IMG/VR virus record: IMGVR_UViG_3300035661_000261
Span: 1 to 29,801 of that record
Direction: 5' to 3' (one strand)
DNA length: 29,801 nt
From: a virus
This document shows, piece by piece, positions 19,098-21,826 of this stretch; position 1 is the first letter of the stretch, and each line of letters starts with the position of its first letter. Both the position numbers and the translations under genes were made by a program. Under the pieces are notes generated by a model. The model saw nothing but the letters and a program-made list of their open reading frames with translations. It did not search any database and had not been told where the DNA came from.

Positions 19098-19850
19098 TCA
19101 CGCGGTGGCGTGCCGCATGAAGGTGGCTTGGCTCTGGAGGCGCTTTTGAATGTACGCCAAGCCTTTCCCGGTCACCAAGGTTCGTGTGTAGGTGTGGCTC
19201 TCACCGCGCTCGTCGTTGTATTGCCTCTCGACCACGCGGAAGTACCCTGCGTCTAGGTGGTGCTGGTAGGGCAGGTTGTTGTGCATCAGCAAGCCCTCGT
19301 CGCGCAGGAACTTGAACAGGCGGTTCGGCCCGGTGCCGAGCACCTTGGCAACTTCCTGAATGCTCTGGCAGTTGATGGCTTCTGCCACCGCGTCATGGAA
19401 CTTCGCCTTGGGGGCTTGCTCCTGCACCTTGGCTTCGAGCGCCATCACCCTCTCGGTGTAGGCCAGCAGCGCATTGCGCAGCTTGGCCGGGTCGGACAGC
19501 GCCGTGGAGATGTCGATCACGTTGGCATTGGCCCGACGCTCGCACTCGATGAAGTACAGCCGGGCTTGCTTGCCACGCTCGTTGCGCTCGACCATCGCAA
19601 GCTCTTTTGCCATGTCGAGGCTGATAGCGTACTCCTTTGAAGATCGCCCCTGACCCTTTTCCCCGAAATTGGGGAGAAGGTACGCAACGTAGTCATGGTT
19701 CTCGATGAAGCCGTACTGGGCAATGCGATCCTTGATCCACGTCGAGAAGTCCTTGCCAACCTCGAGGAAGGCGTGCAGGTCGCGTGCGTTGACGGTATGG
19801 ACGGTGCTGTCGCCGATCTGGCGCTCTGCCACTTGGATGAGTTCGTTCAT
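19098..19850 (-). CDS. AntA/AntB antirepressor with KilAC domain
   Basis: A 250-aa protein. The N-terminal AntA/AntB domain (PF08346, about residues 13-90) shows 'VNARDLHAFLEVGKDFSTWI', 'YGFIENHDYV' and 'YAISLDMAKELAMVERNERG'. The C-terminal KilAC/ANT domain (PF03374, about 130-245) shows 'AEAINCQSIQEVAKVLG', 'NRLFKFLRDEGLLM' and 'LVTGKGLAYIQK'. Such proteins bind and inactivate phage repressors to trigger lytic growth; P1 Ant is the classical case. ATG 19850 is chosen because GAGGAG lies 8 bases upstream, within the end of the preceding gene; the GTG at 19859 has no room for a ribosome site. It is the last gene of the leftward operon, and likely controlled through the upstream RNA (see 20646-20762). 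Confidence 0.9.
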   Translation of the reverse strand: MNELIQVAERQIGDSTVHTVNARDLHAFLEVGKDFSTWIKDRIAQYGFIENHDYVAYLLPNFGEKGQGRSSKEYAISLDMAKELAMVERNERGKQARLYFIECERRANANVIDISTALSDPAKLRNALLAYTERVMALEAKVQEQAPKAKFHDAVAEAINCQSIQEVAKVLGTGPNRLFKFLRDEGLLMHNNLPYQHHLDAGYFRVVERQYNDERGESHTYTRTLVTGKGLAYIQKRLQSQATFMRHATA

Positions 19851-19855
19851 GGCGC

Positions 19856-20395
19856 TCACTCCTCGTCGTCGGACAGGGAGGCGATGTACGCCACATGGTC
19901 GAATCCAAGACCTGCGTTAGCGCGGCGCACCAGGTCTTGTTCGGTGATCCGGTCGAGGTTGGAACCGAGATGCTTGGCGGAGACCGCCAGCCACCGCGAT
20001 ACCGTGTTGAAGAAACCGCAATACTGGCCCCGGAACGCATCGAAGGTTTCGCTCCACTCGCTGCATGTGGAGCGATCAGCCATCGCCTTGCCGCCCTCTT
20101 GCTCGAAGCGGATCATGAAGGACTCGACGATGCCGGTCAGCCAATAGACAGGGAAGTCAACCTTCTCTTCACGCAGGAACTTCAGGAAGGACAGCGCCAT
20201 CGCCTCGCCAGTCTCGTAGCCACCGAGGTAACCGCCAGAGGCAGGGACGTTCCAGCAGGGCGAAGCGGACTCGGTGCGCCGGCCGGCCACGAACGGCAGG
20301 CGACGGAAACCGGATTTGCCACGGGTCTTGCGCTTGATTGGGTTGGGAGATTTGCCGACGAATGCGGCGGGGAGATGGGTAACAACAGCAGCCAT
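19856..20395 (-). CDS. Unknown protein preceding the antirepressor (179 aa)
   Basis: A 179-aa protein with AGGAGG at 20401-20406 and a 5-base spacer to ATG. N-terminal 50 residues are basic ('KRKTRGKSGFRRLPFVAGRR'), the centre has 'GGYLGGYETGEAMALSFLKF' and 'VYWLTGIVESFMIRFE', and the C-terminus is acidic (SLSDDEE). I do not recognise the family. Its stop region holds the ribosome site of the antirepressor, so the two are translationally linked. By position it corresponds to the icd gene that precedes ant in P1, though no sequence similarity is claimed. The leader before it carries a complementary segment that could hide its ribosome site. Confidence 0.7.
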   Translation of the reverse strand: MAAVVTHLPAAFVGKSPNPIKRKTRGKSGFRRLPFVAGRRTESASPCWNVPASGGYLGGYETGEAMALSFLKFLREEKVDFPVYWLTGIVESFMIRFEQEGGKAMADRSTCSEWSETFDAFRGQYCGFFNTVSRWLAVSAKHLGSNLDRITEQDLVRRANAGLGFDHVAYIASLSDDEE

Positions 20396-20423
20396 GATGG
20401 CCTCCTGATAGATCGTTCAAATT

Positions 20424-20444
20424 CGCCTCCTGTTAAGAGAGGCG
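20424..20444 (-). promoter_or_regulatory. Hairpin masking an upstream Shine-Dalgarno-like AGGAGG
   Basis: Read on the minus strand, CGCCTC (20444-20439) pairs with GAGGCG (20429-20424) with a 9-base loop; the 3' arm includes part of an AGGAGG (20431-20426). A second, unmasked AGGAGG 25 bases further down serves the 179-aa gene. The first could be a decoy or serve a very short TTG-initiated leader peptide at 20420. Confidence 0.45.
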
Positions 20445-20574
20445 GCCGGGCGCTTGAACACCGCTATCAGACGGCCCACAGTTTTCCCCCGAAGGGTCTT
20501 GTATGGCTGTGGACACCCGGCCATAAGCTGACATTGGACCGTGTGCACGGGACAATGAAGAAACCTATGGACGC

Positions 20575-20602
20575 AAAAAAACCGCAGAACTGTCGGGTGC
20601 GG
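20575..20602 (-). terminator. Terminator after the C4-like RNA / dUTPase
   Basis: On the minus strand CCGCA (20602-20598) pairs with TGCGG (20586-20582), with an 11-base loop, followed by seven T residues (20581-20575). It lies between the structured RNA and the antirepressor leader, so transcripts from the dUTPase side would end here unless read through. Segment A of the leader repeats is just upstream. Confidence 0.7.
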
Positions 20603-20645
20603 AAGCCGCTGATAGAAGGTGTGTTCAAGCACCTGTGGCGGACTC

Positions 20646-20762
20646 TAGCACCGAGATGGCGGGCTGTCAACCACCGTGCGCGAGAACCGCACGGTCGGTC
20701 CGTTGCCTATGGCTGGAGGCTCTGTGCATGGTCAACGGAGCGTTTCTCATGAGCCGGTGCTA
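20646..20762 (-). ncRNA. C4-like antisense immunity RNA (structured core)
   Basis: A closed structure on the minus strand. The outer helix pairs TAGCACCG (20762-20755) with CGGTGCTA (20653-20646). Inside lie two hairpins: TCCGTTG (20739-20733) with CAACGGA (20705-20699), and ACCGTGCG (20695-20688) with CGCACGGT (20680-20673). The large loop of the first contains GCCTCC (20720-20715), complementary to the GGAGGC ribosome site, and AGCCAT complementary to the ATGGCT start of the 179-aa gene 300 bases downstream. P1/P7 C4 and P4 CI are short RNAs of this kind, produced from the leader of the antirepressor (or replication) operon on the same strand and acting on its translation or termination. 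Position upstream of AntA/AntB, structure, and anti-ribosome-site loop agree. A dedicated promoter is not clear; it may be processed from the dUTPase transcript. Sequence match to Rfam C4 is not verified. Confidence 0.68.
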
Positions 20763-21193
20763 CCGAACCCTCCACCCCCGCGCGCCGTCTCCGTCAATTC
20801 GTCCGCTTCCTCGAACTCAAGCCTAGGGACTTCGCAGATAAACGCTTGCGCGATCCTGTCGCCGGGCTTGATAAGCATCGGCTCGTTGTAGACAAATCTC
20901 CAGCGTCGCAGCAGCACCTTCACCTCGCCTCGGTAGTCGGAATCAATGACACCAGGAAACGCCTCGACGCTGTGAGTGAATGCCAGCCCGCTTCGAGGCG
21001 CGATGCGCATCATGTACCCTGGCGGAATCTCAAACGCCAATCCGGTTCCTACAACAAGCTGGCAACCAGGATGTAAAACACCTTCGTCGATACCGGTAAC
21101 CGTCGCCGCATACAGGTCGAAACACGCAGCCCCTTCGGTCGCATAGACCGGCATCCTGGCCTCCGGGTGCGTCCGTTTCACCTTGATCTTCAT
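20747..21193 (-). CDS. dut: dUTP diphosphatase
   Basis: A 148-aa trimeric dUTPase (PF00692) hydrolysing dUTP to dUMP and pyrophosphate, keeping uracil out of phage DNA. All five motifs are visible: I 'GAACFDLYA', II 'APRSGLAF', III 'GVIDSDYRGEV', IV 'GDRIAQAFI', V 'RGGGGFGSTGS' with the C-terminal Arg/Gly arm. GGAAGGAG precedes the ATG by 6 bases. The 3' end overlaps the start of the structured RNA region, so the two probably share a transcript. Confidence 0.95.
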   Translation of the reverse strand: MKIKVKRTHPEARMPVYATEGAACFDLYAATVTGIDEGVLHPGCQLVVGTGLAFEIPPGYMMRIAPRSGLAFTHSVEAFPGVIDSDYRGEVKVLLRRWRFVYNEPMLIKPGDRIAQAFICEVPRLEFEEADELTETARGGGGFGSTGS

Positions 21194-21244: not shown

Positions 21245-21826
21245 TCATTGTGAATGCGCTTTCATTTTCTTCGCATTGGGAGCAACTGTCTTGATGGCGT
21301 CAGCCGAACAAATGTTATCAGTTGCCCACTTGCAAGCTGATTGCCATGCCTCCCATAGCCTTTGCAATTCATCATCCGAATATATGATTACGTTCCCATC
21401 ATCGTTCGCAACGTACCTATTAAGAAAAGACGGATCAGCGTCTATAGCTAATTTTGTTTTTACCCAAGCCACAAATTGTGTGTGCTCTGGACCTCGAATA
21501 GCAATTTCCGCGTTCACGTCAGTACGATAAGAGCATCTAAAGCAATCTACGCAGTATGCGCAGGCGACGCAATCGGTGCATCGAAGGCATTCGAAGCATC
21601 CTGTACAGTTGTTGCATCGAGAGCAATCAATGCAGCCAGTGCAGCCAATGCAAGAATCGCAACTGGTGCACCCGATGCAATCCGAGCATCCCGAGCAATC
21701 AACGCAGTCAATGCATCCTGTGCATCCGTCATCATCAAGTTCCTTGCATCGTGCGTCGGCTTCCTCTTGGCTTTTGGTGCTATATGACCTGTTCCCTCTT
21801 GGTGAAACCTCAGACACGTATCGCAT
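21245..21826 (-). CDS. Protein with 22 cysteines at exact three-residue spacing
   Basis: A 193-aa protein. Residues 1-34 are polar. Residues 35-98 have a cysteine at every third position, C35 to C98, 22 in a row without a break, with variable small or acidic residues between (for example CTGCIDCVDCSGCSDC). Residues 99-193 form a mixed region ('RGPEHTQFVAWVKTKLAID', 'DDELQRLWEAWQSACKWATD'). A uniform C-x2-C repeat can form a polyproline-like or solenoid rod with cysteines on one face, suited to metal clusters or disulphide stacking. No named family recognised. GAGGGA lies 7 bases before the ATG. It lies in the early leftward operon between a small ORF and dUTPase. Confidence 0.82.
   Translation of the reverse strand: MRYVSEVSPRGNRSYSTKSQEEADARCKELDDDGCTGCIDCVDCSGCSDCIGCTSCDSCIGCTGCIDCSRCNNCTGCFECLRCTDCVACAYCVDCFRCSYRTDVNAEIAIRGPEHTQFVAWVKTKLAIDADPSFLNRYVANDDGNVIIYSDDELQRLWEAWQSACKWATDNICSADAIKTVAPNAKKMKAHSQ

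Follow-up and report, generated by a model that had tools for sequence, protein, structure and literature searches.

The minus strand at 20670-20395 of the window, by which we mean the whole 29,801-nt stretch analysed here (IMG/VR virus record IMGVR_UViG_3300035661_000261), very probably holds the promoter and leader of an operon comprising a 179-aa gene and an antirepressor gene, with a C4/CI-type autoregulatory antisense system. Our best reading of the sequence is that a leader-derived antisense RNA, a structurally distinct variant of C4/CI, would keep the antirepressor operon off. At the level of sequence comparison, the leader architecture, the RNA fold, the two cognate targets and the guide-target coevolution are established; from these we infer promoter use, release of the RNA by processing, a ribosome block and an effect on termination.

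The first gene of the operon (19856-20395, on the minus strand, as are all leader features below) encodes a 179-aa protein (phrog_12849) with relatives in Pseudomonas phages, and the antirepressor gene (19098-19859) encodes AntA/AntB and KilAC domains (PF08346, PF03374). The earlier note had placed an antirepressor operon on this strand, and the AntA and KilAC domains confirmed it. The predicted leader start is a sigma-70-like promoter, TTGACA-N17-TAGAGT with an extended -10 (20642-20670; 10/12 matches), which was the best of the region and has a promoter-like counterpart at the same place in related leaders. It is followed by a leader hairpin, GGTG-CTTGAACA-CACC (20618-20633), with target b1 (GCTTGAACAC, 20621-20630) mostly in its loop, and by target a1 (CTATCAG, 20609-20615). 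Downstream of a1 lies a terminator-like CCGCA-N11-TGCGG-T7 (20575-20602), which was absent from a simple terminator scan because its loop is 11 nt and the scan takes loops of 3-8. Its 5' arm is able to pair with the GCGG after a1, and the alternative hairpin GCGG-CTT-CCGC (20599-20609) competes for that arm.

The predicted antisense RNA itself is an sRNA-Xcc1 element (20436-20522), composed of an outer stem enclosing hairpin 1 (20476-20512) and hairpin 2 (20461-20474). Guide a' (UCUGAUAG, 20464-20471) occupies the loop of hairpin 2 and guide b' (GUGUUCAAGC, 20452-20461) the linker from hairpin 2 to the outer 3' arm. A further hairpin, CCTC-TCTTAACAG-GAGG (20426-20442), lies 3' of the RNA and is conserved in the subfamily; in relatives it reads CCTCTCTGAACAGGAGG, its loop often repeats a b-type TGAACA, and it may serve as a further b-like site, the third, or as a signal for 3' processing. 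The sequence before the 179-aa gene, TTGAAC-GAT-CTATCAG-GAGG, comprises target b2 (TTGAAC, 20415-20420) and target a2 (CTATCAG, 20405-20411), which runs into the Shine-Dalgarno GGAGG (20401-20405), with the ATG at 20395. On the other side of the leader lies the dUTPase gene (20747-21193) and, upstream of it, a gene (21245-21826, minus strand) for a 193-aa protein with about 20 cysteine triplet repeats (CxxCxxC...) and a match to phrog_15341.

Both target sites are complementary to the guides of the element. Upstream, b1 pairs with b' over 10 nt and a1 with a' over 7 nt (duplex -36.4 kcal/mol); downstream, b2 and a2 pair with b' and a' over 6 and 7 nt, ending at the Shine-Dalgarno sequence (duplex -19.7 kcal/mol). 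CTATCAG occurred in both flanks in 0.005% of shuffling trials. The whole leader folded more stably than its shuffles (z -4.6) because b1-a1 pairs with a'-b' of the Xcc1 element.

The element matched RF02221 over its full length (positions 1-87) with 76.7 bits, against a curated cut-off of 53. The C4 model (RF01695) gave no match at E <= 10 within 20350-20900, isrK (RF01394) and c4-a1b1 (RF03163) gave none in the window at the same threshold, and RF02221 matched neither P1 nor P4. RF01695 and RF02221 thus fail in both directions, and the element is not a member of RF01695. It nevertheless has the C4 architecture, with the outer stem enclosing hairpins 1 and 2, a' in loop 2 and b' in the linker; the C4 layout, with a1b1 upstream and a2b2 at the next ribosome-binding site, both cognate and covarying with a'; and the C4 context, the leader of an antirepressor operon. 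From layout, guide display and coevolution, the element would appear to work like C4/CI despite the mutual mismatch of the two models. The claim of the earlier note that the RNA is structurally distinct from Rfam C4 is therefore well supported, but for the RNA at 20436-20522.

Coevolution was examined in homologues found by the hairpin-1 motif ATACAANACCCNNNNGGGGAA, with which viral and genome collections yielded at least some 240 stretches. The matches listed represent 229 distinct sites, 202 of them with flanks and an outer stem and 187 parsed for hairpin 2 and linker; they include 164 unique guide pairs and 143 different a' loops. A cognate match was defined as an exact complement to a' of >=6 nt in the element's own flank. 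Among the matches listed, such a complement was present upstream in 139/164 cognate cases (85%) vs 6.2% of non-cognate ones, and downstream in 119/164 (73%) vs 3.4%; about a quarter of these loci had no downstream match of >=6 nt, some of which belong to a chromosomal Xanthomonadales class (see below) or are probably other RNAs. A replicate set of 30 loci was found with the Rfam model instead of the motif among 398 sampled genomes of the phylum; an RF02221 match was present in 58 of these genomes and exceeded the cut-off in 40. Here the a' complement was present upstream in 25/30 loci (non-cognate 9.0%) and downstream in 17/30 (non-cognate 5.7%).

Shared ancestry was controlled with 63 disjoint nearest-neighbour pairs having scaffolds >=75% identical and different a' loops. 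The own loop matched the own flank better than the neighbour's in 114 comparisons upstream (7 ties, 5 worse) and in 100 downstream (24 ties, 2 worse). We also aligned 12 leaders of the window's subfamily independently of complementarity. In this alignment a1:a' was paired in 72/72 cells (100%) with 32 double changes, compared with 29-44% paired and 2-4 double changes when the partner was slid by 1-3 columns; a':a2 was 91.7% paired with 23 double changes (0-4 when slid), a2 being missing from two rows because these end short of it. In the alignment of the sRNA-Xcc1 element itself, both hairpins and an outer stem of 9 bp were recovered, and 9/22 pairs carried double changes. All 12 leaders kept the order promoter, b1 hairpin, a1, terminator, RNA and b2-a2-Shine-Dalgarno.

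A search with the 179-aa protein gave three loci among viral contigs, two of them 100% identical over the matched part and one 52% identical and without Xcc1; none was found among genome contigs, and DNA blastn of the locus against phages found none. Several viral contigs (L078, L081, L096, L104, L106, L144, L178), a marine/cyanophage-like group, carry an ATACAA hairpin in an element that ends in CCATCGGAATCCCGG and has no cognate targets, so we did not accept the ATACAA motif as sufficient by itself; L081 scored 54.3 bits for RF02221. The CCATCGGAATCCCGG-ending elements are possibly a different RNA of similar fold.

In the mechanism that we propose, the promoter at 20670-20642 would start a transcript carrying b1-a1, the terminator-like hairpin, sRNA-Xcc1 and b2-a2 joined to the Shine-Dalgarno sequence. 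Transcripts that read through would be processed down to ~80-88 nt, a step modelled on C4/CI and on the mapped 88-nt sRNA-Xcc1 of Xanthomonas. Acting in trans on b2-a2, the a' loop and b' linker would base-pair there and keep ribosomes from entering the 179-aa gene; through polarity this block would reach the coupled antirepressor gene as well. The guides would also pair with b1-a1, freeing the terminator arm from GCGG-CTT-CCGC and favouring early termination. The model for the upstream target is P4, in which pairing of CI RNA with seqA and seqC causes transcription termination (PMC4825925). The termination step, which rests on predicted folding, is the weakest part of the mechanism; the terminator hairpin was absent from the minimum free energy (MFE) structure of several leaders, the window's included, and the MFE folds of the leaders differ. 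In a lysogen, the antirepressor would be kept off, and incoming phages of this type would meet an immunity whose specificity lies in the a' loop.

The known systems were compared with the same tools. P1 gave an Rfam C4 match of 68.8 bits, and P4 one of 74.9 bits in the CI region. The complement search returned TTGACAG and GTTAGTG upstream and TTGACAG...GTTAGTGA before the downstream ATG in P1, GTGAGAA and TTCACAGG upstream and GTGAGAA...TTCACAGGAGG before the ATG in P4, and the equivalent a/b targets of C4 in phiAH14b; the order b2-a2 before the start codon is alike in the window and in the C4 loci of P1, P4 and phiAH14b. Like C4 of P1/P7 (RF01695), the window's element would be an RNA of ~80-87 nt in the leader of an antirepressor operon, with an outer stem, a hairpin 1, a hairpin 2 with the a' loop, and a b' linker, and its targets are placed as in P1, a1b1 lying upstream and a2b2 immediately ahead of the start codon. 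The variable a' is the specificity determinant in C4 (PMC5320573) and would likewise be so here. Unlike C4, whose corresponding stem is simple, Xcc1 has a conserved AUACAAnACCC-N4-GGGGAA internal-loop motif in hairpin 1. RNase P is reported to cleave C4 at GGW (PMC5320573), and the 5' end of Xcc1 lies at AUGG, as in the RF01695 consensus.

The window resembles P4 CI in having a single guide RNA with one upstream target and one over the next Shine-Dalgarno sequence, a layout that we checked in P4; CI differs in being an Rfam C4 match that controls the P4 replication genes, with no antirepressor. IsrK and STnc1160 of Salmonella Gifsy-1, which have been likened to the P4 CI system (PMC4825925), likewise form a terminator-bearing, seqA-like leader sRNA followed by a processed ~80-nt RNA before antirepressor genes, but they belong with the C4/isrK models, which miss the window. 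In phiAH14b, and in some P. aeruginosa phages where the 179-aa gene has a relative, the RNA present is C4 and not Xcc1, so the window has a related operon with another RNA class. Among five Pseudomonas phages with such a relative (L005-L009; whole records W03-W07), 3/5 have Rfam C4; the whole records of JBD68 and Ostro gave neither a C4 nor an Xcc1 match.

The earlier note had proposed a C4/CI-like RNA in this leader, but at 20646-20762 on the minus strand, with an outer helix closing two hairpins and with GCCTCC and AGCCAT in one loop as guides against the ribosome site and start of the 179-aa gene. It identified the kind of system correctly and the RNA and guide sequences wrongly. The complementary arms that it described can be read in the sequence: TAGCACCG (20755-20762) with CGGTGCTA (20646-20653) for the outer helix, and TCCGTTG/CAACGGA and ACCGTGCG/CGCACGGT for the hairpins. 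The 117 nt are somewhat stable (MFE -45.8 kcal/mol, z = -2.2; 3/200 shuffles equally good), and the MFE fold retains the outer helix together with the hairpin of 8 bp; it lacks the 7-bp one, in the loop of which GCCTCC and AGCCAT were to lie. The window contains GCCTCC 24 times, close to the 23.3 copies expected by chance, so its match to the Shine-Dalgarno sequence carries no weight. The 5' outer arm sits in the dUTPase gene, whose 3' end the structure overlaps, and the 3' outer arm sits in the spacer of the promoter at 20670-20642, so a transcript from this best promoter would exclude the fold. The Rfam C4 model gave no match to it, and the only two other copies of the locus found were both 100% identical over the matched protein, leaving no varying homologue. 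The overlaps, the lack of a C4 match and the invariant copies leave this structure unsupported, and we rejected it as a C4-type antisense RNA. That it acts as one by pairing through GCCTCC/AGCCAT is very unlikely, the more so as a complete C4-type system is present downstream, its element starting 124 nt beyond the end of the segment.

Two other explanations keep the sRNA-Xcc1 element and change its role. It might act only in cis, pairing with b1-a1 within the leader to set read-through or exposure of the Shine-Dalgarno sequence, and no free RNA would be made. The MFE of the whole leader does pair b1-a1 with a'-b', and intramolecular pairing would yield the same covariation; yet a single guide serves two competing targets, as it does in C4/CI with their released RNA, a self-closed element displaying its guides in loops suits a free antisense RNA, and sRNA-Xcc1 of Xanthomonas is seen as a distinct band of ~100 nt, its ends having been mapped to an 88-nt RNA (PMC2996969). 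We consider a purely cis role improbable. The literature on sRNA-Xcc1 suggests instead a general trans-acting sRNA with many host targets, whose place before the operon would be incidental, and published computational predictions name numerous host genes as targets. Targets spread over the host give no reason to expect that a' coevolves with its own leader, as it does with two sites there in most loci sampled, which counts against this explanation and makes it extremely unlikely. The reading that we prefer remains a leader-derived antisense RNA acting on its own operon.

The RNA precedes several kinds of genes. Among the first downstream genes, representatives of the two largest clusters carry Bro-N/P22_AR_C and AntA/KilAC (the window's cluster), and a third cluster is the XAC0095 family. 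Within the window's subfamily, the RNA precedes the 179-aa/AntA operon, Bro-N genes (L270, L296), Rha (L089) and SymE (PF08845) in Xanthomonas arboricola (L256) and Lysobacter (L274). In the latter two (L256:1787-2212, L274:648-1099), Xcc1 lies directly before the SymE toxin gene and both a1 and a2 match a'; this layout predicts that sRNA-Xcc1 would repress symE translation.

A chromosomal Xanthomonadales class of Xcc1 (L213, L215, L222, L275, L282, L297 and others; L354-L366) has the promoter, b1 hairpin, a1 and terminator upstream and no clear b2-a2 downstream, so the downstream target is not universal; the gene after it is often of the XAC0095 family. An X. hortorum genome has nine parsed Xcc1 copies, all with distinct a' loops, eight of which match upstream; a test for cross-talk gave a match in 11/72 cross comparisons among the parsed copies. 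The strict core was found in 9/13 copies of this genome and, with the same script, in 1/10 of a second genome.

Published work presents sRNA-Xcc1 as a trans-acting sRNA that is carried by integrons and controlled by HrpG/HrpX, and notes it upstream of symE, where its mode of regulation was called unclear (PMC2996969, PMC12444791). With symE it is reported in the most widespread Xanthomonas integron cassette, for which a "divergent regulatory mechanism" was noted (PMC12444791). Neither of these papers links it to C4/CI, and in the open literature naming sRNA-Xcc1 the word antirepressor is absent and C4 antisense RNA is co-named once, as table entries. C4, isrK and Xcc1 are listed side by side for one Xylella genome (PMC12189769). 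Within this open literature we found no publication placing sRNA-Xcc1 in the C4/CI kind.

We regard it as likely that sRNA-Xcc1 as an entire family forms a second class of C4/CI-type antisense RNA, distinct in structure and widespread in Proteobacteria, whose hypervariable a' loop provides a specificity code that the element's own leader matches. The module would keep AntA, Bro-N and Rha off in prophages, would have been domesticated for symE in Xanthomonas, and would include an upstream-target-only chromosomal class before XAC0095-family genes. So far, sRNA-Xcc1 has been treated as a virulence-linked trans-acting sRNA with many computed targets; covariation indicates that its primary targets would be the two sites in its own leader. 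An orphan sRNA family would thereby become an immunity/autoregulation module of the P1 C4 and P4 CI kind, with a concrete and testable function, and its position before symE in Xanthomonas cassettes would be explained. If this is true, reading the a' loop would predict the immunity groups of phages whose repressor is unknown, and the specificity of antirepressor control and prophage immunity could be read from sequence.
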